Origin: Rugalucina vietnamica
Lineage: Eukaryota > Mollusca > Bivalvia > Lucinida > Lucinidae
Assembly (NCBI GenBank): GCA_964017185.1
Contig: OZ024882.1
Location: forward strand, 43,321,431 to 43,385,430
Reading direction: 5' to 3'
Length of the DNA stretch: 64,000 nucleotides
Part shown: one piece after another, positions 1-19,303 of the stretch
How the letters are laid out: every line of letters starts with the position of its first letter
Numbering within the stretch: position 1 is the first letter of the stretch
The notes under the pieces: generated by a model
Seen by the model: only the letters and a program-made list of their open reading frames with translations
Databases searched by the model: none
What the model was told of the DNA's origin: nothing
Position numbers and translations under genes: made by a program

Positions 1-119
1 GATTTTCTGGCAATGATGCAGGCCTGATCTTCTTTTTTACATGTTTAGCATTATTTCATTAAGAACTAAATTTTAGTCATCAAGTTGAATCAGATTTTTT
101 TTTCTTTTTCCAGGCTTAT

Positions 120-406
120 ATGAATGAAAAAATGAATGAATGGATAGATCTAAATGAATGAATGAATGAATGAATGAATGAATGAATGAATGAATGAATG
201 AATGAATGAATGAACAGGCCAATGAATGAAATTAGTTTGAATGAAATTTTATCTAGGAATGAAAATGAACGTAGGAATGAATAGATGAATAAATGAATGA
301 AATAAATTACTGTGAATGAATGAATGAATGAATGAATGAATGAATGAATGAATGAATGAATGAATGAATGAATGAAATTACTTTAAATGAATGAATGAAT
401 GAATGA
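120..406. repeat. (TGAA)n microsatellite, two blocks
   Basis: Long GAAT/TGAA runs at about 150-213 and 313-376, with a shorter run at 388-406 that ends a few bases inside the intron after the exon 12 donor. The rest of this stretch holds imperfect GAATGAAT. Confidence 0.95.
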
Positions 407-413
407 ACAATAC

Positions 414-506
414 CTGGGCATCCTGCATAGTTTGGCCCCGGGGCGAACATCACTCCATCCTGACAGCACCCGAACTGGCTCTCCGAACAGTCTCGGATGT
501 TTGAAT
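414..506 (-). CDS. AGRN: Agrin exon 12: GCCQDG cysteine module
   Basis: Acceptor TATGTCAG, phase 1 in; donor GTATTG, phase 1 out. The reading is DSNIRDCSESQFGCCQDGVM, then APGPNYAGCP. It aligns with the HCAQTPYGCCQD...AGCP stretch of vertebrate agrin that precedes the laminin-EGF domains, which should lie to the left of this window. The donor is followed within a few bases by a (TTCA)n microsatellite (about 313-406). Confidence 0.85.
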
Positions 507-584
507 CTGACATATGCTCTATATGCTCTGATAAAACAAACCATGCAATTTCACCACGAGCTAAGTACAAGCACAAATCTAACA

Positions 585-855
585 CATCACGAAAACGTGT
601 AATGTATACCCCTTGAATCCCACTTTTATGTAGCAAAACTGGGGTATGCAGGGGTATACCTATTTTTCTTATTTTTGCTCCAAAACATAGATTGTGGGTA
701 CTCGTTAGAACCGCCTCGCCGAGGCGGTTCTAACGTTTATCAACAATCTATGTTTTGAGCAAAAATAAAAAAAATATCAAAAAATTTCCATTGAAAAATT
801 TCATTTTTACAACTTTAAAAATCTATGTATATTGTATGGGCCAGTTTTCGTAATG
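585..855 (+). mobile_element. Family A palindromic MITE
   Basis: Ends CATCACGAAAAC and GTTTTCGTAATG; internal TATACCCC block; central palindrome around GCCTCGCCGAGGC at about 712-727. It lies about 80 bp upstream of the exon 12 acceptor. Confidence 0.85.
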
Positions 856-1036
856 ATAACAAGTTAAGTCCAAGATGTGTTCCATGTCCGACCTTCCTTG
901 GACATATAAAGGTCCAAATTGCACGGAATCATTATTTTAGAAATTTTCAACTTCTATATGTATATTTCACTGTAATTTGTTGGAAAAAGCCAATGTTTCA
1001 TGTTTTCACACGGCACCTGATAACAGTCACGTGTCA

Positions 1037-1513
1037 AGGCCCCAAGGTTATAAAATTTTTTCATGCTCAGCTGAGACTAAAATTTTTCCTGCCCATAAAT
1101 GTTAAAATGCCAACAATCGTTTGTTGGCATTTTAACATTTGAGCCGCCCCATGGGAAAAACAACAATCTGCATAGGCGAAAACAAAGGCGTAGATCAGTA
1201 ACCGCGAAGCTGATCAGCGCCTTTGTTTTCGCTACACGGATAGGGCAATTCCTCTTCTACTTAAATCCGAAATTTCCAGTCTCTATCCATCTTCTGTGCT
1301 TGTACAGCCCGGTTTGTGTCGGACCTGTTCGGAAACAACATTGTTGGTTTTCCCACTAGGCAGTTCATTTATAAGCAGGATAAATTACAGACAATAGCAA
1401 TCTTACCCTGAAATTTCATCCAATTTTGGTTTAAATATTTCAGTAATTATGAGCAGTTTAAATTTCATGCTCAGCTGAGTTGAGCATGAAAAAAGTTTAA
1501 TAACCTCGAGGCC
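1037..1513 (+). mobile_element. Family E palindromic MITE, interrupted by family B
   Basis: Ends GGTTATAAAA and TTTAATAACC, with CATGCTCAGCTGAG on both sides and a TGTTAAAATGCCAACAA hairpin in the middle. A family B element (1140-1367) sits inside it. A nearly uninterrupted copy is at 22086-22313. Confidence 0.75.
1140..1367 (+). mobile_element. Family B palindromic MITE nested in family E
   Basis: Starts TGAGCCGCCCCATGGG and ends CCCACTAGGCAGTTCA; the core GGCGTAGATCAG..GCTGATCAGCGCC has lost part of one arm. Confidence 0.85.
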
Positions 1514-1555
1514 AGAAGTATCATTTTCATTCTATGAAGCGTCCATACAGATACA

Positions 1556-1762
1556 TGAGCCCCCTCGTGGGAAAACCAACAATGTGGTTTCCATACAGAT
1601 GCGACACAAACCGGCCTGTACAAGCACAGAAAAGAGCTAGAAGCTTGACATTTCAGATTTAAGTAGAAGAGGAATTGTACTTTCCTAGTAGCGAAAACAA
1701 AGGCTGATCTGCGTCTTTGTTTTCGCCTATGAAGATTGTTGGTTTTCCCACGAGGTGGCTCA
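1556..1762 (-). mobile_element. Family B palindromic MITE
   Basis: Ends TGAGCCCCCTCGTGGG and CCCACGAGGTGGCTCA; the central palindrome is shortened to GGCTGATCTGCGTC. Confidence 0.85.
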
Positions 1763-2003
1763 CATCTTACATAGATGGTAAAACCATTCTAAAACACCAC
1801 AAATATTTAGGACGGAAAACAGTCCAATACAATAGGATGGTAAATCTATCCTTTATCATCCTAATGTCTCATTTTACGATTCCGATGGAAATCCATCCTG
1901 GACTTAACCGATAACTCAAACATAGCAAATAATTTATTGAAAAATGAATGTGCAAGTAAAGTTGCTAAAATATTTACTCTATGGATGCTTAGATGCCTGA
2001 CTT

Positions 2004-2628
2004 CATCACGAAAACATATCCATGAAAAGTATACCCCCTTGAACCCCACTTTTATAAAGTGAAACTGGGGTACAGGGATTTTTTCTGCAATTTTGGGAAG
2101 GGGCCCTAGGGCCTTTCTGATTGGGAAAATTAGCGACATAACCCAGAATTTGGGAATTTTTCAAAACATTCAAAGATTATGATATTTTCCAATTTGACAT
2201 AGTTAATTAAGTTTAATCATTTTAAATCATTAAATAATATCTTAAAATCAAAGTTTAACATCATTTCAAACAGCAGAGTTTGGTTTTCACAATGTTTAGG
2301 AACTGTTGAGTGTTATTTTCAGCTGTGATTGGGAATTTTTTCCTTCAAATTGGGAAAAAAGTCACCTAATTTGCATTGGGAATGGGGCCTTATTTCGGCC
2401 CCTGAGACACTCAAAAAAAATCCCTGGGGTATCAGGGGTATACCTATTTTTAATAATTTTTGCTCCGAAACATAGATTGTGGGTACTCGTTAGAACCACC
2501 TCGGCGAGGCGGTTCTAACTTGTACCCACAATCTAAAATTTGAGCAAAAATAAGAAAAGTATCAGAAAATTTCCAATTTTTACAACTTATGAAAATTCTG
2601 TATGTTGCATGGGCGTGATTTCGTAATG
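2004..2628 (+). mobile_element. Family A MITE carrying a nested element
   Basis: Ends CATCACGAAAAC and ATTTCGTAATG; the palindromic core lies at about 2470-2545. It is split by the insertion at 2073-2426. Confidence 0.75.
2073..2426. mobile_element. Small TIR element nested in a family A MITE
   Basis: Inverted ends CAGGGATTTTTT / AAAAAATCCCTG with GGGTA on both sides as a likely 5-bp target duplication (GGGGTA if one base is shifted). It contains repeated TTGGGAA motifs and no coding potential. Confidence 0.65.
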
Positions 2629-2703
2629 TGATTATAAATCTCAGTTCATAAGTGATCTGAGCAGGAGGGTGTAATACACACTCTACACCTCAAACCTAAA
2701 AGC

Positions 2704-3345
2704 TAAGCATTTTCAGCACAACTATACTCAGTCGGTGCTATTACATTTCCGCATTTTTAAAAAAATTTCATTTGCGCACAGTTTTCATTTGCACGCAGAA
2801 ATGCATATCATTTGCGCACAGTTTTAGTGTTACATTTGCGCGTATGTTTTTGCACTTCTTCCTTGGCCAGCTGCTGGTATTTTATCAGCACTGTTACCCC
2901 TGTCCACTGACTTTGAAGTGGAAGAGTTCGAATAGGTTTACACAGTCACTAAAACTATTAAAATAAAATTAATTTAATTTTAGTATAAGATATGTACGTT
3001 TTGCAGCACATTGTTTTGTTCATTGGGCATCATCAGGCACTGTCTTTATATTTTCTCGAATTTTAATTGCCTTGAATGCCATCTGTCTGACGAACTAGTT
3101 TGGACTGGAAATGAGGGCTTTGCTTGTATAGGTTTGGACTGGAAATGAGGGCTTTGCTTGTCTATACAGTCTTGTGGGTGCAAACATATCATTTACCTGT
3201 CAAGAGAAAATCTGATGTGCACAAATGTAACATTTACCTGGGAAAATTGTGTGCGCAAATGAATATGTTTACCTGGGAAAAAATTGTGTGCGCAAATGAA
3301 CCACATTCTTTCAAAACTGTGCGCAAATGTGCTGCCACCACTCAG
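2704..3345. mobile_element. Candidate TIR element with TTTGCGCAC repeats
   Basis: Several copies of CATTTGCGCACAGTTTT near the left end and the inverted TGTGCGCAAATG near the right end, with GGTGCT / AGCACC-like outer ends. No transposase. The boundaries are approximate. Confidence 0.45.
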
Positions 3346-3768
3346 TCCTGCTATGATCATTAAAAGAAACAAATTGCTTGGCCTACAATGATCAGCAAAG
3401 GAGCAACTTATTAGATGGCTTTTTTCACATAGCTGAATGTAAAATGTTCATGCAACAAGTAAAAGACTTGGGATGTAGCTTAGAAGAAAATTTAGGAACC
3501 ATACTCATGCCCAATGAATATGCGCCACTGACAGAAAGTGTAAAATTTTGAAATATGACTACAAATTTCAGTTGTGTAGTTTCTTTATTATTCTGCCAAA
3601 ATTTTGACATGTTAACAAAATTTGCCCACGAGCCAGAGGCAGTAAAGGTTTTGATACTCCAATATCTAACAAATCTGAAAAGTGGTGTGTTTTCATTGGA
3701 CATGAGTATACATGCACTATTTCCTTGAGACTCATCTCTATGAAACTATGAAAAATGACAAATTTACT

Positions 3769-4047
3769 CATCAGGAAAACATGTCCATGCAATGAATACC
3801 CCCTTATACCCCACTGTTATATAGCAAAACTGGGGTATGCAGGAGTATACCTATTTTTCTTATTTTAGCTCCAAAACATAAATTGTGGGTACTCATCAGA
3901 ACCGCCTCAGCGAGGCGCTTCTAACTTGTACCCACAATCTATGTTTTGAGCAAAAATAAGAAAAATATCAAAATTTTTTTTCTGAAAATTTTCACTTTTT
4001 ACTTCTTTAAAAATCTCTGTATATTACACAGGCATGTTTTCGTGATG
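3769..4047 (+). mobile_element. Family A MITE abutting the agrin exon 11 donor
   Basis: Ends CATCAGGAAAAC and GTTTTCGTGATG, full palindromic core. Its right end touches the intron side of the exon 11 splice donor (GTACA then the TIR). Confidence 0.9.
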
Positions 4048-4052
4048 TGTAC

Positions 4053-4190
4053 CTTCCTGACAGCATTTCCCAAACGGTATATGACAGTAACTGTTCTTTG
4101 GACAATCTGACCCTTTGGTACACTGGTATTCTTTGGAATTTCGGGAGTTGATCACAGGGGGTTGCCCATTACACAGAATTTCGTCCATAT
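4053..4190 (-). CDS. AGRN: Agrin exon 11: lustrin-like cysteine module
   Basis: Acceptor TTACTTCAG, phase 1 in; phase 1 out at GTACAC. The reading is DMDEILCNGQPPV, then EYQCTKGSDCPKNSYC and FGKCCQE. The spacing C-x-G-x-P ... C ... CP..YC ... CC fits the lustrin-type cysteine repeat known from shell matrix and papilin-like proteins. Vertebrate agrin has no module here, between the last FS and the GCCQD module. A family A MITE begins about six bases into the intron, so it supplies part of the donor surroundings. Two decayed copies lie upstream. Assignment to the same transcript rests on phase and position. Confidence 0.75.
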
Positions 4191-4255
4191 CTGAAGTAAA
4201 AGGTGTGAAAATACATATTTGGAGAGAAAAGTGTGAAAATGTTTAAGATCAATAT

Positions 4256-4372
4256 TGTTTTTCAGTGACAGTCTCTTGGGCAGTCTGAGCCCTTTATACA
4301 TAGGTAGTCTTTTGAGATTCGGTGGTTGTTCATTAGGGGTTGCCCATCACTTCCTATCTTGCCCATATCTGG
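4256..4372 (-). pseudogene. Decayed copy of agrin exon 11
   Basis: The acceptor TATCCAG is kept and sequence similarity covers the first two-thirds of exon 11 (GQPLMN, then KGSDCP). The first cysteine is lost and the reading stops early, after DCH. No donor is seen. It lies about 180 bp upstream of exon 11 and shares the flanking intron, so it is a tandem duplicate. Confidence 0.7.
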
Positions 4373-4419
4373 ATAGAAAGGTGTGAACATACATAATTGA
4401 AGAGGTGTGAAAATACATA

Positions 4420-5624
4420 CACTTCAGACCCGTTATAACGCGCTGGTCGGGGTCCACAAGTGGCATGCGCGTTATAGGTGAGGCGCGTAATGCAAATCTA
4501 CTAAGTCGGACCAGGCTGATCGCAGTTTCTGTAGTGTATTGGTGGGTGGGGAACCTATACGACGTGTTTATTGGCTTAACCGAAATTGGCGGTTTATCGC
4601 GGTGTCCTTGTAAAATGGAATAAAAAAAGTGAAACTTTGTGTGTTCCCACATTTTAATCAGTTAAAAACGATCTACAACGATAAAATTCGTTTATTTACA
4701 ACGTATGAGCAAATGTGAAAACAGCATCCATGACGTCGCGCTTATGTTGCTGTTGTAGAGTAGAGTTCCGCCTTTGACTTACTGGCGCACCCGGATATTT
4801 AACGCGGACACGTGTGAATTTGCCGATTCCGTATTAACAATTATTTTAATTCGTCGTTCTTAATCGAGAAAGTACAAATGCGTTTTCTGATCGGATATAA
4901 TTATACAAGAAATAGGTGTCCCAATGCTTAGACAATCTTTGGTTTGTGTCGCCGTCGAAATTGAGCAACGCTGTGTAACAGGTGTCATAAATAGCCTACA
5001 GCAACCTGTGTTTACGGTCTCGTTACGGTCTATCGATAATCCCCTAGCGCGTTTGGCTTATTTTCACAACTTTTATGACTAATCTTAAGAAAACAATGTG
5101 TCATCCACGCTTCGCGAGCGGTGGATTGTGTCAGTCTAAAAATTACTGAAATGACAATTATCACTCGTGAATATACACGCAGTCGACACGGTTCGTAAAC
5201 ACATTATGTTTTCTATAAGCAAACCTGTTCTTTCAGTTTTAAAAATGCAAAAGATAATTAACATTAATTGTTTCCAATGTACAATATAGAGAAACTGTTA
5301 GAAATAGCACCTTGGCAAACGTCTGACAACGGCCTTTTTTTCTCTCTTTCTCGAGTACCATAAAGAGAAACTGTGAGAAAACTGAACCTTGGCGAATTCC
5401 TTGCAAACGATCTTTTTAACAGTGAATTCATCCGCACATAAACGCCTTTAACTGCAATACAATAAAGGAATATATATCTGGGTAAAACGGCACCTTCGCG
5501 TCGCCGCGTTTTTTTTGTTTTTTTTTTTTCAAAAGTAGGTGGGCGAAATTTTGGGGTCCAAGGTGCCCTCGCGTTTTTTCCAACATCGCGTTAATTCAAG
5601 GCGCGGTATAGCGGGTCTGTCCTG
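4420..5624. mobile_element. 1.2-kb non-autonomous TIR element, Tc1/mariner (Tigger)-like
   Basis: Inverted ends contain CAGACCCGTTATAACGCGC on the left and GCGCGGTATAGCGGGTCTG on the right, flanked by TA on each side. CGTTATAACG-type ends recall Tigger/pogo elements. No transposase ORF was seen. It sits between two decayed copies of agrin exon 11. Confidence 0.6.
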
Positions 5625-5647
5625 TAATAGAAGAGAAAGGTTTTAAA

Positions 5648-5735
5648 ATGTTTTCAATCAACATAATATGGCTGACAAAGAGTTCTGTTGGCTAATCATG
5701 GGAGGTTGTCCATCACGTAATATTTCATCCATTTA
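5648..5735 (-). pseudogene. Second decayed copy of agrin exon 11
   Basis: A shorter and more diverged copy of the start of exon 11, with GATGAAAT and GGACAACCTCC matching. Its phase is disrupted. Removing the 1.2-kb transposon at 4420-5624 would put it about one repeat unit (170-180 bp) from the first decayed copy, so the three exon copies once formed a simple tandem array. Confidence 0.6.
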
Positions 5736-5839
5736 TGAAAAGGTGTGAAAAATATCAATCAAACTATTGTGTAATAATTGTACATATTTCATTCACAGAA
5801 ATGTGTTTTAAAAATTTGATATGGGGTGAACTCCGAGTG

Positions 5840-6119
5840 CATCAGGAAAACATGTCCGTGAAATGTATACCCCCCTTGAACCCAACTTTTATATAGGAAA
5901 ACTGGGGTATGGAGGGGTATACCTATTTTTCTTATTTTTGCTCCAAAACATAGATTGTGGGTACTCGTTACAACCGCCTCGTCGAGGCGATTCTAATGTG
6001 TACCCACACTCTATGTTTTGAGCAAAAATAAGAAAAATATTGAAAAATTTCTACTGAAAATTTTCATTTTTTACAACTTTAAAAATCTCTGTATACTGCA
6101 TGGGCATGTTTTCGTAATG
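5840..6119 (+). mobile_element. Family A MITE
   Basis: Ends CATCAGGAAAAC and GTTTTCGTAATG; core GCCTCGTCGAGGCG. It ends about 25 bp beyond the donor of exon 10. Confidence 0.9.
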
Positions 6120-6144
6120 GAATATAAAAGATACAGCCACCCAC

Positions 6145-6257
6145 CATCACAGCTACCCTGAGACTGCACAGATATATATCTTTGCTGTTCACAACTCGCC
6201 ATCTGGAGTTCACATTGATTACCATAAGTCGTTCCATCTGACCCACATACTGGAGAC
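6145..6257 (-). CDS. AGRN: Agrin exon 10: Kazal half of FS module 7 (the copy with a usable donor)
   Basis: Acceptor TTCTCAG, then (R)[28 protein letters not shown] and GSCD. It enters in phase 2 and leaves in phase 1 at donor GTGGGT. It is the last of six copies of this exon in the direction of transcription. The other five (about 6471-7235) lack a good donor, so this one is preferred. Phase 1 out matches exon 11. Confidence 0.8.
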
Positions 6258-6287
6258 CTGAGAAGCAAAAATCATAACATAACATAA

Positions 6288-6469
6288 CATTAACAATCTC
6301 AGCTACTATATGTGAGACAAGCCATGTTCTGCTTGCGGGTGTGTCAGGTGGTTTTTCCCCGGGTACTCCGGTTTTCGCCCCACCTACCAATTGATTCGTC
6401 TCGATATGAGTGAAAAAGCTTGAAAGGGACGTAAAACTGAATCAAAGAAAAAAAAAAAAAAAAAAAAAA
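6288..6469 (+). mobile_element. 5'-truncated tRNA-derived SINE
   Basis: Matches the body of the SINE at 10440-10690 (CTTGCGGGTGTG, CAGGTGGTTTTTC, GAAAGGGACGTAAAACTGA) and ends in a run of about 22 A. The tRNA-like head is missing. It lies between two copies of the exon 10 array. Confidence 0.85.
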
Positions 6470-6470
6470 C

Positions 6471-7235
6471 AATCACAGCTACCCTGAGTCTGTACAGATA
6501 TATATCTCTGTTGTTCACAACTAGCCATCTGTAGTTCACATTGATTGCCATAAGTTGTTCCATCTGACCCACATACTGGAGACCTGAGAAGCAAAGATCA
6601 TAATCATTATACACTTACATAACATAACATAACATAACATAACATAACATAACAACATAACGTAACATAGCATAACATTCATAATCACAGCTACCCAGTG
6701 TCTGTACAGATATATATCTCTGTTGTTCACAAATAGCCATCGATAGTTCACATTGATTGCCATAAGTCATTCCATCTGACCCACATACTGGAGACCTGAG
6801 AGGCAAAAATCATAACATAACATAACATAACATAACAACATAACTTAACATAGCATAACATTAATAATCACAGCTACCCAGTGTCTGTACAGATATATAT
6901 CTCTGTTGTTCACAAATAGCCATCTGTAGTTCACATTGATTGCCATAAGTCGTTCCATCTGACCCACATACTGGAGACCTGAGAAGCCAAAATAATAACA
7001 TAACATAACATTAACAATCACAGCTACCCTGAGTCTGTACAGATATATATCTCTGTTGTTCACAAATAGCCATCTGTAGTTCACATTGATTGCCATAAGT
7101 CGTTCCATCTGACCAACATACTGGTGACCTGAGAGGCAAAAATCATAATCACTAATCATCACAGCTCTACTGAGTCTGTTCACAGATAGCCATTTGTAGT
7201 TCACACTGACTTGATATTTTTTTGTGAATTTGATG
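6471..7235 (-). pseudogene. Tandem extra copies of agrin exon 10 (five, one partial)
   Basis: Copies lie at about 6471-6583, 6683-6795, 6866-6978, 7016-7128 and a partial one at about 7150-7235. The four fuller copies keep a CAG acceptor and an open Kazal half, reading [15 protein letters not shown]. One has Gly to Trp in VCG, and one has Met for Thr. Where exon 10 has GTGGGT, these copies have GATTGTT, GATTATT or GATTATG, so no strong donor is seen. AACAT microsatellite separates several copies. They look like recent tandem copies of one exon. Rare or mutually exclusive splicing is possible but not supported by the donors. Confidence 0.7.
6610..6860. repeat. (AACAT)n microsatellite blocks
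   Basis: Runs of TAACATAACAT at about 6617-6682 and 6812-6862, with short runs near 6280 and 7000, between the exon 10 copies. Confidence 0.9.
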
Positions 7236-7355
7236 CCTCGCAAATTCAAAGTTGTGGCTAATTAATGACTCAGATATAGAAAAATTTGCAACATAAAAGT
7301 CACGGAAAAATTTCTGAATTTACAGCATTTTTTATTTTTTTGATTGATACATTAC

Positions 7356-7458
7356 CTAATAGCATCACAGCTGAAGCTACATCGACATTTCCCGTTTTCA
7401 CACATTCCTCCGAACCTACACGACATCTCATCACAGTCCTCACCATCTCCTGAACCTT
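7356..7458 (-). CDS. AGRN: Agrin exon 9: linker and N-terminal half of FS module 7
   Basis: Acceptor CACTATAG, phase 1 in; donor GTAATG, phase 2 out. The reading is EGSGDGEDCDEMSCRFGGMC, then CRCSFSCDAIR. It aligns with the SGSGEDGDCEQELC stretch of vertebrate agrin, one of the strongest identity marks in the window. The phase 2 end needs one base from the next exon, and exon 10 supplies G to complete Arg. Confidence 0.87.
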
Positions 7459-7517
7459 CTATAGTGATAGGTAATAACAGTTAGGACATGTTATGTGTTC
7501 AGAACTAATTTTCTAAA

Positions 7518-7596
7518 CCCAGCAGGCACATGACGTCAAAATGACGTCAGATCGACGTCATTGACGTCAATTTGACGTCGTCATGTGCCCGCTGGG
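7518..7596. mobile_element. Miniature palindrome with CRE motifs
   Basis: Inverted ends CCCAGCAGGCACATGACGTC / GACGTCGTCATGTGCCCGCTGGG around repeated TGACGTCA-like motifs, 79 bp. Same family as 14728-14835. Confidence 0.8.
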
Positions 7597-7889
7597 AAAA
7601 TTCTTCAGTTCAAAACAAAACAACAAATTGTAAGTCACAGCTAGAGAAATTATTTAGCTTAACTCTCTTTAACCTTTTATAGTGATCGGCAATAACTATT
7701 AGACATGTTATGTAATCAGAAATATGTTTTGATTAGTGACAGTTCATAACAGAAGTTACCAATTGTTACAAGTTACATGCATTTATTTATTCTGGTTATT
7801 TTCTTTCTTTATTTGTTGCTTTGTATTTCAGAGTAGATACCCATAGTACTAGGATTGAGTCACCCAACCCATAGTTTTAGGATTGAGTC

Positions 7890-8205
7890 TGTCGGTAGGT
7901 ATTTTTTTTTTTTTTTTTTGACAGAACTGACAGATATTATTTTTGTATGACTTTTAAAGAGGATAGGTTTAAACTTCTGTTCAGAAACATATAGGCAGCT
8001 ACTCTTCTACTGTAGGACTGCACAATATTGCATTCAGACAAATATATATTCAACAAATAAGTAATTCAGAGACTGAAATTGAAGACATTAAAAGAAAAAG
8101 AAAAAAATGTTCTTTGTGAATGTCTATAAAATTGTTTGGGTAGGGGCAATTTTGGTGGGTCAGTCGGGTGACGGCAAACAGAGAATTTTTTTAAGGTCAG
8201 CCTTA
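7890..8205. mobile_element. Decayed relative of the Harbinger-like MITE at 60168
   Basis: GGGGCAATTTTGGTGGGTCAG and GTCGGGTGACGGCAAACAGA match the right half of the element at 60168-60525. The left half is weak. Confidence 0.4.
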
Positions 8206-8471
8206 TGTGTAGATAATTGTTAGCATTTACAACATTTAAGATATAGTTGACTTGAAGTTGACAACATTTAACAATATGCCTTCCATGACAGAACTAAGTT
8301 GTAATAATTCTGCTTGTAGTTTAAAATTTCAGATGTTTAAAATTAATTTTGAAACTTTGTTAGTTTGTTTTGTTGATTAACATCACAGTCAACAATTTTT
8401 CAGTCATGTGAAGGTCCGAATTGCAGCTTACAGCATTTTGACCATTACAATGTACCTTAGGGAGTAAATGT

Positions 8472-8535
8472 GTTATGTTTACGGTTGTTTACGGTTGTTA
8501 ACGGTTGTTTACAGTTGTTTACGGTTGTTTAGGGT
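8472..8535. repeat. 10-bp minisatellite (ACGGTTGTTT)n
   Basis: About six imperfect units of TTTACGGTTG. Confidence 0.9.
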
Positions 8536-8589
8536 TGGTTTGAACAGCCTACCTCTCCATCTGGAGTCCAACACACTAACCAATAGACT

Positions 8590-8935
8590 ATCTCCTTTTA
8601 CCCATATTTGACGAATGGATTTTCCCATCAGTATCATTTGGGCGAGTCCACTTCAGTTCTTAGGGGCATCAGATGTGATTTTCAGAATTTATTCAATTTT
8701 TGGATGAAAATTCTCTAAGCAAACAGAATAGCCCCAGATGGGACGCCGCGTTCTGCGGCGTCACATCTGGGGCCATTCTGTTTGCCTATGTCCCACAAAA
8801 GGGACGCCAGGCTTAAATAACAGAATGGCCCCAGATGTGACGCCGCAGAACGCGGCGTCCCATCTGGGGCCATTCTGTTTGCCTATGTCCCACAAAAGGG
8901 ACGCCAGGCTTAAATATTTGAGTTAAACTTGGATA
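8590..8935. mobile_element. Family D element with a duplicated, flipped hairpin
   Basis: Two neighbouring copies (about 8724-8817 and 8818-8917) of a CCCCAGATG..CATCTGGGG hairpin, followed each time by TTTGCCTATGTCCCACAAAA. The stem reads GGGACGCCGCGTTCTGCGGC in the first and its exact reverse complement in the second. Relatives at 28660, 54893 and 61322. Confidence 0.75.
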
Positions 8936-9627
8936 ATAGACAAGGAGAGATCTGATACACATGCCCTTGATTATAAAGGCTTTCTATTTCCAAAATTCCA
9001 TGGTTAAACAAGATTCAAAATCAGATAGCAGAAAGCAAATATCTCTTAATTTCAACAAACTTAATTTACTAAAGAAGTTCTACAAAATCTGAATAAACCC
9101 TTTGAGCCATGTAATGAGATAACTGGCTTTTGGCCAAACAAAGACAATGATCAGCACCTTTGAAGGTTTCCCTATACAGATCATGCAATCCACATTCCTT
9201 TTTAAACCATAAATTTCAAACATTAAATTTCTTCTGTGACTGTACAGGACGGTTTGTGCCGTGCCTGGTCAGAAACTCTGACAGACATGTTTTCCCAGAC
9301 ACGGCTCCTTTGAGAGCAATTTGGCATTTTCAAATTGGCATTTCCAAATATTTCTGTCATGAAAGGCACAGTGGGCGTATTAAAATTTGATTAAAATCAA
9401 CAACATTTAGAAAGCAGTTACACAAATCACAGAAATTGTGTGCAGAGAATACAACAACAATGTTTTGTATTCAAAGATATGTAACTTTTTCAGCTTGCTA
9501 ATTGTATGAAGTCAGATGAAAATGGACAAGCACCAAATAACAAACAAATCCTTAAGCTCAGCCTGTTAGCCTTTGCTTTGGTTTGAGCAAAGTTAATTCT
9601 AGTTCAGTTAAATTGCAGTATTTTTTT

Positions 9628-9722
9628 CTTCTTGGCCCTATTGATTCCAGTGGATCCTCCGCACACTCGCCAGAGTGCAGGGTATCTATATTTTATTCTG
9701 CTTACAGCCATTCCATCTCCCT
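9628..9722 (-). pseudogene. Ghost copy of the 3' part of agrin exon 8
   Basis: About 95 bases match the end of exon 8 (GGCTG..AGCAGAATAAA, GGCGAGTGTG, GAGGATCCACTGGA). The donor GTAAAA has become AAAAAA. A family B MITE starts right beside it (9731), and the upstream part of the exon is absent. It is a local duplicate that no longer splices. Confidence 0.7.
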
Positions 9723-9730
9723 GTACTAAA

Positions 9731-9966
9731 TGAGCCGCCCCATGGGAAAACCAAGAATCTGCATAGGCGAAAACAAAGGCGCAGATCAGCTTTGCGGTAA
9801 CAGCGAAGCTGATCAGCGCCTTTGTTTTCGCTACTCGGATAGTACGATTCCTCCTCTACTTAACTCCAAAATTTCAAGCTTCTAGCCTGCTTCTGTAGCT
9901 GTACAGGCCGGTTTGTGTCAGACCTGTTCGTAAACCACATTGTTGGTTTTCCCACGTGGCAGCTCA
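9731..9966 (+). mobile_element. Family B MITE
   Basis: Ends TGAGCCGCCCCATGGG and CCCACGTGGCAGCTCA; core GGCGCAGATCAGC..GCTGATCAGCGCC. It lies beside the exon 8 ghost copy. Confidence 0.9.
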
Positions 9967-10078
9967 AATTACTTCTGTCCAACCACTCTGCGTAATCAAA
10001 ATATGTAAGCTCAACTTAATAGTCTTAAATTTGGTTTGATTAAATTCCTATCCAACTTAGTTGTGCAATATTTTTTAC

Positions 10079-10306
10079 CTCCCGAACCTATAGACTCCAG
10101 TGGATCCTCCTCACACTCGCCCGTGTGCTGGGTATCTATATCTTTATTCTGTTGGCAGCCATGTTTCTCCATCTCACACTGGTTGTGGTAGGTTCTACCG
10201 TCCGTCCCACAGACAGGTTCGTAGTCGTGGGGACAAAGGACCGGGCAGACACATTCTCCGTTCCTGCACTTGGCTCCATGCTTACATACAACAGAGTTGC
10301 ACTTTA
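10079..10306 (-). CDS. AGRN: Agrin exon 8: FS module 6 plus acidic tail
   Basis: A whole FS module in one phase 1-1 exon. Motifs are VKCNSVVCKHGAKC, CVCPVLC, YEPVCGTDGRTYHNQCEMEK and TGECEEDP, followed by a Ser/Gly linker (ESIGSGG) that runs into exon 9. Vertebrate agrin has a comparable SGSG-rich acidic linker here, a likely glycosaminoglycan attachment region (inference). The true acceptor TCCATTTCAG directly follows A-rich SINE tail sequence, in which several further copies of the acceptor are found upstream. The donor is GTAAAA. Confidence 0.88.
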
Positions 10307-10309
10307 CTG

Positions 10310-10353
10310 AAATGGATAGAATTTTTTTTTTTTTTTTTTTTTTTTACTGAAAT

Positions 10354-10388
<35 letters not shown>

Positions 10389-10455
10389 GAAATGGATAGA
10401 TTTTTTTTTATTTTTTTTTTTTTTTTAACTGAAATAGATAGATTTTTTTTTTTTT
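10310..10455 (-). repeat. A-rich SINE tail with repeated exon 8 acceptor
   Basis: Four T-runs on the plus strand, separated by ACTGAAATGGATAGA-like segments. On the minus strand this is poly-A alternating with TCTATCCATTTCAGT, the sequence of the exon 8 acceptor itself. Units are 30-60 bp. Confidence 0.85.
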
Positions 10456-10690
10456 ATTTCAGTTTTACGTCCCTTTCAAGATTATTTCAGCTCATATGAG
10501 ACGGGCCAATCAGTAGGTGGGCGAAAACGGGAGAACCCCAGAGAAAAACCACCTGGCACACCCGCAAGCAGAACTTGGCTTGTCTCACTTGCTGTCAGAG
10601 CGGGGCTCGAACCCACACCAGACACAGCGGTGAGATGATCGAGTGATTAAGAAACAGCACTCTTAACCACTCGGCGACAGGGGCAGCTAG
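10440..10690 (-). mobile_element. Full-length tRNA-derived SINE
   Basis: On the minus strand: a tRNA-Ser/Leu-like head (box A CGCCGAGTGGTTAAGAG, box B GGGTTCGAGCCC), a conserved body (GCTTGCGGGTGTGCCAGG, CGTTTTCGCCCACC), then GAAAGGGACGTAAAACTGAA and poly-A. I do not assign a family name. It is inserted just upstream of agrin exon 8. Confidence 0.85.
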
Positions 10691-10828
10691 GTTAGAAAAT
10701 GAAACATTATGAGCAAGATTAAAAGAAAGCTTTTGATTCTTTGAAAATAATTAGGTGTAGTATGGCTCACTTCAGGGAGATTTTTTTTTCTCATAAAAAA
10801 ATGGTGTACTTTAGATAAATTTTAGATC

Positions 10829-11103
10829 CATCAGGACAACATGTCCGTGAAATGTATACCCCCTTGAACCCCACTTTTATACAGGAAAACTGGGGTATGC
10901 AGGGGTACCTATTTTTTCTTATTTTCGCTCCAAACACAGATTGTGGGTACTCGTTAAAACCGCCTCTGTGATAACGAGTACCCACTATCTATGTTTTGAG
11001 CAAAAATAAGAAAAATATTGAAAAATTTCTACTGAAAATTTTCATTTTTTATAACTTTAAAAATCTCTATATACATGTACTGCATGGGCAAGTTTTCGTA
11101 ACG
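10829..11103 (+). mobile_element. Family A MITE with a collapsed core
   Basis: Ends CATCAGGACAAC and GTTTTCGTAACG; the central palindrome has lost most of the GCCTCG arm. Confidence 0.85.
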
Positions 11104-11214
11104 ATTTTACTGCTCATTTACTGGAGTCTCCCTGATGATCAGGGAGTCATCACATAAATGTGTCAAAATTTTTTGGTAATCAAATACATGTACTCAATTA
11201 AAATATCCTTTACT

Positions 11215-11312
11215 ACATGAACCATACATGTATGAATGTATGTCATAATGTAGATATGTTTATGCTGTTTACATGAGGTTACAGGTAGTTCAAACGCGCC
11301 TTCAAACGTTAC
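11215..11312 (-). pseudogene. Ghost copy of agrin exon 7
   Basis: The minus strand reads FELPVTSCKQHKHIYI against FECELRVASCKQHKDILI-like coding of exon 7. The cysteine pattern is broken and no donor is visible. Its 5' side is cut by the family A MITE at 11313. Confidence 0.65.
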
Positions 11313-11590
11313 CATCAGGAAAACATGTCCGTGCAATGTATACCCCCTTGAACCCCACTTTTATATAGTAAAACTGGGGTTTGCAGTGGTATACCTATTT
11401 TTCTTATTTTTGCTCCAAAACATAGATTGTGGGTACTCATTAGAACCGCCTCGGCAAGGCGGTTCTAACGTGTACCCACAATCTATGTTTTGAGCAAAAA
11501 TAAAAAAAATTCAAAAATTTTCAGCTGAAAATTTTCAATTTTTAAAGCTCAAAAAATCCCTATTTATTGCATGGGCAAGTTTTCGTAATG
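11313..11590 (+). mobile_element. Family A MITE cutting the exon 7 ghost
   Basis: Ends CATCAGGAAAAC and GTTTTCGTAATG; core GCCTCGGCAAGGCGG. GTTAC occurs on both sides. Confidence 0.9.
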
Positions 11591-11632
11591 GTTACCATAA
11601 TAAAAGCTTATTATTATAAACGGTAATTTTAC

Positions 11633-11747
11633 CACACGATCCAAATGTCGAGATAAGGATATCTTTGTGCTGTTTACACGAGGCCACACGTAGTTCACAT
11701 TCGCTTTCATATGTTTCACCATCTGTGCCGCATACTGGGTCATCAGT
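11633..11747 (-). CDS. AGRN: Agrin exon 7: Kazal half of FS module 5
   Basis: Phase 0 in (acceptor GGTTTTAG), phase 1 out (donor GTAAAA). The exon codes TDDPVCGTDGETYESECELR, then ASCKQHKDI and a closing GSCG. It pairs with exon 6. A decayed copy of its middle lies just downstream at about 11215-11312, cut by a family A MITE. Confidence 0.88.
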
Positions 11748-13067: not shown

Positions 13068-13303
13068 TGAGCCACCTCATGGGAAAACCAACAATGTGGT
13101 TTCCGAACAGGCCCGACACAAATCAGGCTGTAGAGTCACAGAAGCAGGCTAGAAGCTTCAAATTTCGGATTTAAGAAGTAGAAGAAGTGTACTATCTGTG
13201 TAGCGAAAACAAAGGCGCTGATCAGCTTCGTGGTTACCGCGAAGCTGATCTGCGTCTTTGTTTTCGCATATGCAGATTGTTGGTTTTCTCACAAGATGGC
13301 ACA
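13068..13303 (-). mobile_element. Family B MITE
   Basis: Starts TGAGCCACCTCATGGG; core GGCGCTGATCAGCTTCG..CGAAGCTGATCTGCG; the end TCACAAGATGGCACA is degenerate. Confidence 0.85.
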
Positions 13304-13337
13304 TTTCATGAATATTAAAGGTTCATGTGTGTAGGTA

Positions 13338-13422
13338 AGTCAGGTCAGATTAACTGCTACTGTAACATGTAATCAGTACTACCTGTTGTCATGCGGTGTG
13401 GATGGGGCTCGTTAGCCTTGGA
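13338..13422 (+). mobile_element. 5' head fragment of the LINE family at 30808
   Basis: About 85 bases match 30808-30895 nearly base for base (CTGCTACTGTAACATGTAAT, CCTGTTGTCATGCGG, GGGGCTCGTTAGCCTTGGA). The match ends inside the first minisatellite unit. LINE fragments usually keep the 3' end, so a 5'-only piece is odd. Confidence 0.75.
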
Positions 13423-13943
13423 CGACAACATACCTTTTCACAATGGTCGTTAGCCTTGGACGACAACATACCTTTTCACAATGGTCGTTAGCCTTGGACG
13501 ACAACATACCTTTTCACAATGGTCGTTAGCCTTGGACGACAACATACCTTTTCACAATGGTCATTAGCCTTGGACGACAACATACCTTTTCACAATGGTT
13601 GTTAGCCTTGGACGACAACATACCTTTTCACAATGGTCGTTAGCCTTGGACGACAACATACCTTTTCACAATGGTCGTTAGCCTTGGACGACAACATACC
13701 TTTTCACAATGGTCGTTAGCCTAATGGACGACAACATACCTTTTCACAATGGTCGTTAGCCTTGGACGACAACATACCTTTTCACAATGGTCGTTAGCCT
13801 TGGACGACAACATACCTTTTCACAATGGTCGTTAGCCTTGGACGACAACATACCTTTTCACAATGGTCGTTAGCCTTGGACGACAACATACCTTTTCACA
13901 ATGGTCGTTAGCCTTGGACGACAACATACCTTTTCACAATGGT
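13411..13943. repeat. 38-bp minisatellite carrying the agrin exon 6 splice donor, 14 copies
   Basis: Unit GTTAGCCTTGGACGACAACA followed by TACCTTTTCACAATGGTC, 14 head-to-tail copies with very few changes (one copy is 2 bp longer). Read on the minus strand, each unit contains GTGAAAAG|GTATGT, the last exon 6 bases and its donor. Confidence 0.95.
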
Positions 13944-14033
13944 CAGGACACACACATCTGGACGCTATGCCGTCAGACATACACACAGAGTAGAACTTGC
14001 ATACTGTGTTGTTCTTTTCACAACCCGCCAACA
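13930..14033 (-). CDS. AGRN: Agrin exon 6: N-terminal half of FS module 5
   Basis: Acceptor TTTAACAG, phase 1 in; donor GTATGT, phase 0 out. The reading is MLAGCEKNNTVC, then CMSDGIASRCVCPDHCEK. The last 11 exon bases and the donor are the first unit of a 38-bp minisatellite (13411-13943) that repeats this donor about 14 times. Only the first donor keeps the frame. Reading on into the array reaches a stop in the second unit, so use of a later donor would truncate the protein. The phase 0 end matches exon 7. Confidence 0.85.
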
Positions 14034-14112: not shown

Positions 14113-14216
14113 AGTAAATAAATTGAATTTATGTATTAGATAATAAATTGAATTTATGTATTAGATAATAAATTGAATTTATGTATTAGATAATAAATTG
14201 AATTTATGTATTAGAT
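14113..14216. repeat. 25-bp tandem repeat, 4 copies
   Basis: Unit AATAAATTGAATTTATGTAT plus TAGAT, four near-identical copies. Confidence 0.95.
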
Positions 14217-14574: not shown

Positions 14575-14677
14575 TACACAAACCCCTGTGCTCTACTTTG
14601 ACTCTCTTGTTATTCTCACAGTTCTCTTTACGCAGCATACACTCATTCTCATAGGAGATACCATTCTCACCACAAAC
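14575..14677 (-). CDS. AGRN: Agrin exon 5: Kazal half of FS module 4
   Basis: Phase 0 in (acceptor GGATTACAG), phase 1 out (donor GTAAGT). The exon codes VCGENGISYENECMLRKENC followed by a closing RGLC, the C-terminal Kazal half that completes exon 4. A 108-bp CRE-bearing palindromic element lies about 50 bp upstream of the acceptor, at 14728-14835. Confidence 0.88.
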
Positions 14678-14727
14678 CTGTAATCCAATTATCACACAAT
14701 AAAGTAAGGTCACTGATATGGGTTCAA

Positions 14728-14835
14728 CCCAGCGGGCACATGACGTCAGAATGACGTCAGATCGACGCCGATGCGATGTCATGACATCGCATCGGCGTCG
14801 ATCTGACGTCATTCTTACGTCATGTGCCTGCTGGG
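14728..14835. mobile_element. Miniature palindrome with CRE motifs
   Basis: A 108-bp near-perfect palindrome, ends CCCAGCGGGCACATGACGTC and its inverse. It contains TGACGTCA-type half and full sites and centres on GATGTCATGACATC. Confidence 0.85.
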
Positions 14836-17901: not shown

Positions 17902-17954
17902 TTTCATTATTCAGAGATTCTTTAATTGGCCGTTCCTCGGTACAGAAAATACAT

Positions 17955-18186
17955 TTGAGCCGCATCATGAGAAAACCAACATTTTGCATATGCGAAAACA
18001 AAGGCGCAGATCAGCAGTAACTGCGAAGCTGATCAGCGCCTTTGTTTTCGCTATATGGGTAGTACAATTCTTCTACTACTTATATCCAAAGTTTAAAGCT
18101 TCTAGCGTTCTTCTGTGACAGTACAGACTGGTTGATGTCGGACCTGTTCTGAAACCACATTGTTGCTTTTACCATGAGGCGGCTCA
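17955..18186 (+). mobile_element. Family B MITE (array unit 1)
   Basis: Starts TGAGCCGCATCATGAG, ends CCATGAGGCGGCTCA; the core lacks a few bases of one arm. Confidence 0.85.
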
Positions 18187-18370
18187 TTTCTTTATTCAAG
18201 GATTCTTTAATTGGCTGTTCTTCGGTACAAAAAATATGGTACAACTCTTATACAACTGACAATGGAGTAGCAGCATCAGAGAACCCGTCTTTGTGGTTTC
18301 ATGCTGGGTTTCAACATTTCGGTTTTCATGAATTCCTTAATTGGCCGTTCCTAGGTACAGAAAATACATC

Positions 18371-18606
18371 TGAGCCCCATCAGGAGAAAACCAGCATTTT
18401 GCATATGCGAAAACAAAGGCGCAGATCAGCTTCGCAGTAAATGCGAAGCTGATCAGCGCCTTTGTTTTCGCTACATGGGTAGTACAATTCTTCTACTACT
18501 TATATCCAAAGTTTAAAGCTTCTATCGTTCTTCTGTGACAGTACAGACTGGTTGATGTCAGACCTGTTCTGAAACCACATTGTTGCTTTTCCCATGAGAC
18601 GGCTCA
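18371..18606 (+). mobile_element. Family B MITE (array unit 2)
   Basis: Starts TGAGCCCCATCAGGAG, ends CCATGAGACGGCTCA; core GCAGATCAGCTTCGCAGTAA. Confidence 0.85.
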
Positions 18607-18790
18607 TTTCATTATTCAAGGATTCTTTAATTGGCTGTTCTTCGGTACAAAAAATACGGTACAACTCTTATACAACTGACAATGGAGCATCATCATCAGA
18701 GAACCCGTCTTTGTGGTTTCATGCTGGGTTTCAACATTTATTTTTTCAAGCATTCCTTAATTGGCCGTTCCTAGGTACAGAAAATACATC

Positions 18791-19025
18791 CGAGTCACAT
18801 CATGAGAAAACCAACAATTTGCATATGTGAAAACAAAAAGCGCAGATCAGCTTCGCAGTAAATGCGAAGCTGATCAGCACCTTTGTTTTCGCTATATATG
18901 TAGTATATACAATTCTTCTACTACTTATATCCAAAGTTTCAAGCTTCTAGCGTTCTTCGTTCTGTGACAGTGCAGACTGGGTTGTGTCGGAAACCACATT
19001 GTTGCTTTTCCCATGAGGCGGCTCA
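18791..19025 (+). mobile_element. Family B MITE (array unit 3)
   Basis: Starts CGAGTCACATCATGAG, ends CCATGAGGCGGCTCA; core as in unit 2. Confidence 0.85.
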
Positions 19026-19303
19026 TTTCATTTTTCAAGGATTCTTTAATTGGCTGTTCTTCGGTACAAAAATACGGTACAACTCTTATACAACTGACAA
19101 TGGAGCAGCAGCATCAGAAAACCCGTGTTTTGTGGCTTCATGCTGGGTTTCAACATTTCGGTTTTCATGAATTCCCTCAATACAGAAAATACATTTCTTG
19201 GACATCCTGACAATGGAGCAGCATCATGACAAAAATTATTCTGGGAAATTGTTCTATTCAGTGAATTTTAATTAGCCATTCCTTGGTACATCTCAAAGAC
19301 ATC

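Follow-up and report, generated by a model that had tools for sequence, protein, structure and literature searches.

In the agrin gene of the lucinid bivalve Rugalucina vietnamica, the splice donor of exon 6 lies in the first unit of a 14-unit minisatellite, and the same donor sequence recurs thirteen times in the intron behind it. Most probably the array is a commonplace minisatellite that overlaps a splice donor by accident, with the first donor doing most of the splicing and any leakage to later ones being non-productive; it belongs plainly to a known class, the donor-spanning minisatellites. The window, meaning the whole 64,000-nucleotide stretch analysed, is C14:43321431-43385430, where C14 is contig OZ024882.1 of assembly GCA_964017185.1, and the agrin exons are on its minus strand. 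Positions without the C14 prefix count from the first letter of the window. The features at issue are:

14575..14677, minus strand: exon 5, the Kazal half of the preceding follistatin module, with donor A/GTAAGT (splice-site reading; Kazal match at C14:43336006-43336131)
13930..14033, minus strand: exon 6, the first half of a follistatin module (..LAGCEKNNTVCKFYSVCMSDGIASRCVCPDHCEK), 104 nt, ending in phase 0 (translation, splice-site reading, PDB match)
13411..13944, minus strand: minisatellite of 14 units (TRF and unit-by-unit table)
13907..13944, minus strand: unit 1, made up of the 15 terminal bases of exon 6 and the 23 intron bases next to them, with the presumed true donor (unit table, donor-by-donor joins)
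13411..13906, minus strand: units 2-14, with thirteen donor copies from 13891 to 13433 (unit table, donor-by-donor joins)
13409..13410, minus strand: GA after unit 14, identical to the first two bases of the unit (flanking sequence)
11633..11747, minus strand: exon 7, the Kazal half of exon 6's follistatin module, 115 nt, phase 0 to 1 (donor-by-donor joins, Pfam Kazal_2 on the joined product)
10079..10306, minus strand: exon 8, the next follistatin module, its acceptor at the edge of an array of about four copies (TRF, Pfam)

Judged from the order of domains on one strand together with the best PDB match, the gene is agrin, as a preliminary description of this DNA had held. Tandem follistatin/Kazal exons run along the minus strand of C14, with one further Kazal exon 5' of the window; just 3' of the follistatin exons are laminin-EGF exons (C14:43316771 and 43314049), and laminin-G exons lie at C14:43307251 and 43297509, the match at the latter having one TGA inside. 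All of these are on the minus strand and would form a single transcript. The joined product of exons 6 and 7 has Agrin 8s9p as its best PDB match (8 stretches, E 3.7e-60), and Pfam Kazal_2 scored above cut-off in all five products submitted, at 6e-12 for the joined exon 6+7 product. The module had been numbered 5, which fits a count within the window; it is the sixth if the Kazal exon just 5' is included.

The array itself is real, as first described: TRF reports a single one at 13409-13944 (period 38, 14.1 copies, 98% match, score 1040), and unit-by-unit reading of the minus strand finds an exact AAAAG/GTATGT donor in 14 of 14 units. The unit consists of GACCATTGTGAAAAG (exon part) followed by GTATGTTGTCGTCCAAGGCTAAC (intron part); 15 bases are thus shared with exon 6, not the 11 originally given. 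An initial placement at 13411..14033 takes in exon 6 and the array together, the array proper being 13944-13411 and exon 6 being 14033-13930. The first intron base is at 13929, 13891, 13853, 13815, 13777, 13739 and 13699 for donors 1-7, and at 13661, 13623, 13585, 13547, 13509, 13471 and 13433 for donors 8-14. Thirteen donor copies do follow the first, as had been proposed, but not all at 38-bp steps: 12 of the 13 intervals measure 38 bp, and the remaining one measures 40 bp owing to a 2-bp insertion in unit 6 (CCAAGG to CCATTAGG), the only unit of 40 bp among thirteen of 38 bp. Unit 10 has two substitutions, and the other 12 units are identical. Divergence after unit 1 therefore comes to one 2-bp insertion and two substitutions across 13 units, suggesting recent homogenisation. 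The 23 intronic bases of the unit match 13 times in the window at no more than 3 mismatches (unit 6 is missed owing to its insertion) and not once in 100 shuffles; chance origin of the repeat itself is excluded. A similarity search finds the array at one place in the 1.09-Gb assembly of 47 contigs. The GA flanking unit 14 could mark a 2-bp microhomology, a plausible site for the first duplication event.

Which of the 14 donors is used? Donor 1 is presumed to be, on the evidence of the protein it would encode. Exon 6 ends in ...RCVCPDHCEK, in phase 0, and exon 7 begins TDDPVCGTDG; joining donor 1 to 11747 gives a follistatin module that aligns to agrin in the PDB (domain 6) with no gap at the junction, the alignment's 2-residue gap lying away from it. 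The same join leaves five residues between C and PVCG, as in exons 2, 3 and 8; exon 1 has ten, so that three of the four single-exon modules compared (exons 1, 2, 3 and 8) agree with donor 1. With the true donor placed by protein homology, the unit table bears out the claim that the repeat unit crosses the true exon-intron border of exon 6.

Every later donor would disrupt agrin if used, as the preliminary description had predicted: in joins to 11747, donors 2-14 all give premature stops. Donor 2 adds 38 nt and shifts the frame, with the stop at the first codon of exon 8 and further exons downstream; donors 3-14 take in the TAA of unit 2 in the computed joins to exon 7. The stop in the second unit that had been described thus applies to donors 3-14, and not to donor 2. 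From donor 4 onward the unit-2 stop lies at least 54 nt before the exon 6-7 junction, and with donor 3 the stop is 131 nt before the exon 7-8 junction. By the usual vertebrate rule relating a stop to the junctions that follow it, mRNAs from donors 3-14 would be expected to undergo nonsense-mediated decay.

Nothing in the donor itself favours the first copy. In sequence and in predicted U1 pairing it matches all other copies, and the predicted energy of the repeated donor (-6.8 kcal/mol) falls inside the range of the exon 5, 7 and 8 donors (-7.5, -5.3 and -6.9). No advantage in predicted accessibility was found for donor 1: under each of three settings, none of the other 13 donors scores below it (0.014, 0.009 and 0.005, with other donors reaching up to 0.06). 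Given equal strength and no structural advantage, either the exon context must pick donor 1, or donor 1 is less dominant than supposed. Published work on competing donors cuts both ways here. An intron-proximal donor can be favoured over a distal one, as reported for DOK7 (PMC5585400), and such a preference would disfavour donor 1, because it is the most intron-distal of the 14; the same source reports that SRSF1 activates intron-proximal donors and hnRNP A1 intron-distal ones (PMC5585400).

Several other repeats occur in and near the gene. The exon 8 acceptor (tctatccatttcag/TAAAG) belongs to the last of about 4 copies of a 40-bp array that extends into the intron (10303-10459, minus strand), mirroring the donor array of exon 6. 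At about 7130-6146 (minus strand) a Kazal half-module exon is present as five tandem copies that differ little from one another, each after tctcag/G, with acceptors at 7128, 6978, 6795, 6583 and 6257 and, by eye, a clear donor (GATG/GTGGGT) in the last copy only; the copies may represent mutually exclusive exons or duplicates in decay. Close upstream of exon 6, TRF finds four exact copies of an intronic 25-bp unit (14117-14216, minus strand). A dispersed element with a palindromic core, which by eye looks like a small inverted-repeat mobile element, occurs at about 13180-13310 in intron 6, at about 17917-19175 within a 420-bp tandem array, and at two places in a further Kazal locus (L007, about 1660-1890 and 2430-2660). 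Also by eye, intron 6 holds two diverged copies of a repeat of roughly 400-500 bp (about 12770-11860, minus strand), and a long near-perfect palindrome lies at about 14726-14834 (minus strand), some 50 bp upstream of exon 5.

Is the position of the array at an exon border itself remarkable? Arrays of about three or more copies and period at least 10 make up 5.7% of the 134 kb around the gene and 6.5% of the window. Two of 17 exon edges (the exon 6 donor and the exon 8 acceptor) fall inside such arrays, against 0.97 expected; the 17 are the edges of exons 1-9 without the exon 1 acceptor, with splice sites read by eye. When the array masks were shifted, two or more edges were covered in 32% of cases (P 0.32) and one or more in 49% (0.49). 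Smaller edge sets gave 2 of 10 (P 0.16; the exon 5 edges are 10 bp off, and exons 4 and 9 approximate) and 2 of 8 (P 0.15), and none of eight domain exons, three of them exons 1-3, had an array beside it within a 60-bp margin. The five-copy Kazal cluster (about 7.1-6.1 kb) was excluded from all edge counts. TRF places three of its five acceptors in arrays of about 2 copies, so that the observed count would be higher with the cluster included. The border position of the array is thus not clearly above chance in a repeat-rich region.

Across 61 fetched loci, a 24-mer near a domain edge recurs at least 3 times in the locus in 8, a base rate that uses domain edges rather than true exon edges and in which 13 of the 61 are agrin loci. 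Six of the eight are in this agrin gene and reduce to three features: the exon 6 array, the exon 8 array and the Kazal cluster, seen four times. Neither of the remaining two, among 48 non-agrin loci, offers a fair comparison, L007 being a GA microsatellite and L024 falling within a 1083-aa frame. Edge repeats look more frequent in the agrin gene than in the 48 non-agrin loci, and local proneness to tandem duplication around it is possible.

Across 13 units of the array, the 143 donor-core bases are free of changes, and the 351 remaining bases carry 3 events (Fisher P = 0.56). No extra conservation of the donors is detectable within these 13 units, a small sample that gives no evidence either way. 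Neither donor conservation nor the chance test of edges in arrays lent support to the preliminary description's suggestion that array length could tune splicing fidelity or act as an allele-length-dependent switch.

Taking the array as an ordinary minisatellite, an initial tandem duplication would have copied a 38-bp stretch (15 bases from the end of exon 6, 23 from the start of the intron), and expansion and homogenisation would then have brought the array to 14 units. Selection would keep the exon-side copy, and the other 13, being intronic, would be largely free to vary in number. Most mRNA for agrin would come from donor 1. Now and then a later donor, in the likeliest case donor 2, would be used and give frameshifted or stop-bearing, non-productive mRNA, on which nonsense-mediated decay would be likely to act. 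Agrin would probably be little affected overall; neutrality is not assured, because the human ABCA7 and CBS arrays associate with changes in expression, splicing or activity.

Another possibility, an unlikely one, is that the array modifies splicing according to its length, with unit number varying between alleles and altering agrin output through later-donor leakage or skipping of the next exon. The anatomy is as in ABCA7 and CBS, where longer arrays are reported to go with more exon skipping or with lower expression or activity; near-identical units are typical of unstable arrays, and nothing intrinsic to donor 1 favours it over its copies. Against this, unit retention in ABCA7 is reported to be rare and independent of length, and the donors, in a small sample, bear no sign of selection. 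Somewhat less likely again is the specific proposal that the array is length-polymorphic and a heritable modifier, its unit number setting the amount of full-length agrin through decoy donors or exon 7 skipping; such skipping would shift the frame, because exon 7 is 115 nt. By the ABCA7 precedent, the decoy-donor form of the idea would be the weaker one, since length dependence there fell on next-exon skipping rather than on unit retention.

It is very improbable that the array is an assembly artefact and that the real locus has another, perhaps far smaller, number of units. Short near-identical repeats are indeed error-prone in assembly; but units 6 and 10 bear distinct variants, which argues for real separate copies, the array sits at one assembly place within a 53-Mb contig, and 536 bp is short for long reads, if, as the 47 contigs suggest, the assembly is long-read based. 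There is next to no likelihood that the units serve as 21-nt in-frame microexons, with an acceptor-like TGTTGTCGTCCAAG before GCTAACGACCATTGTGAAAAG and the donor, inserting ANDHCEK: the computed join preserves the reading frame, and the CTAAC in the unit, which resembles a branch point, counts in favour, but the pyrimidine run is poor by eye and the insert would bring an extra cysteine into a disulfide-bonded module. Recursive splicing at AAAAG/GT was rejected, there being by eye no pyrimidine tract ahead of the AG. So was an origin of the intron by tandem duplication of AG/GT, a reported route of intron gain (PMC2891723): the intron sits at a module position, and only the beginning of the intron is occupied by the array.

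Fourteen consecutive donors with the same sequence, of which the first alone keeps the frame without a stop, form a natural test of 5' splice site choice by the spliceosome; if length matters, the array would be a non-human case beside ABCA7 and CBS. Among the papers listed in searches of the open-licence literature on agrin in molluscs and bivalves, and on agrin with alternative splicing, follistatin and invertebrates, titles and abstract openings make no mention of such an array.

By analogy with the human arrays, length-dependent splicing of agrin is possible. The ABCA7 intron-18 VNTR, as reported, has a 25-bp unit in 12 or more copies; skipping of the next exon was length-dependent (p = 3.24e-13), and retention of one unit was not, at about 2 +/- 1% on one reading of a "respectively" in the source (PMC5954066). 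In ABCA7 and agrin alike a tandem array begins at an exon's donor, has the GT within the unit and grows into the intron, and in both the unit length is no multiple of 3 and use of the second donor means a frameshift. The ABCA7 unit, in contrast, starts at the GT without exon bases, whereas the agrin unit has 15; and length polymorphism and length-dependent skipping were measured in ABCA7, whereas the agrin array is known here from the sequence of one assembly. The 68-bp duplication CBS 844ins68, at the border of intron 7 and exon 8, is a further case of a duplicated splice border that is tolerated, reportedly because one of its two sites is strongly preferred (PMC2630376); unlike the agrin array, it is one polymorphic duplication and no array, and lies at an intron's end rather than its start. 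Nearest in anatomy is the CBS 31-bp VNTR, c.1444_1467+7(16_21), at the border of exon 13 and intron 13, with 16-21 copies (PMC2630376, PMC5188458, PMC1395315). Gene, unit and species differ, and the CBS array is polymorphic and reported to lower activity with copy number, a review among these sources associating more 31-bp units with lower activity and higher homocysteine; but its unit, read from its name as 24 exon and 7 intron bases, likewise repeats both the exon end and the donor.
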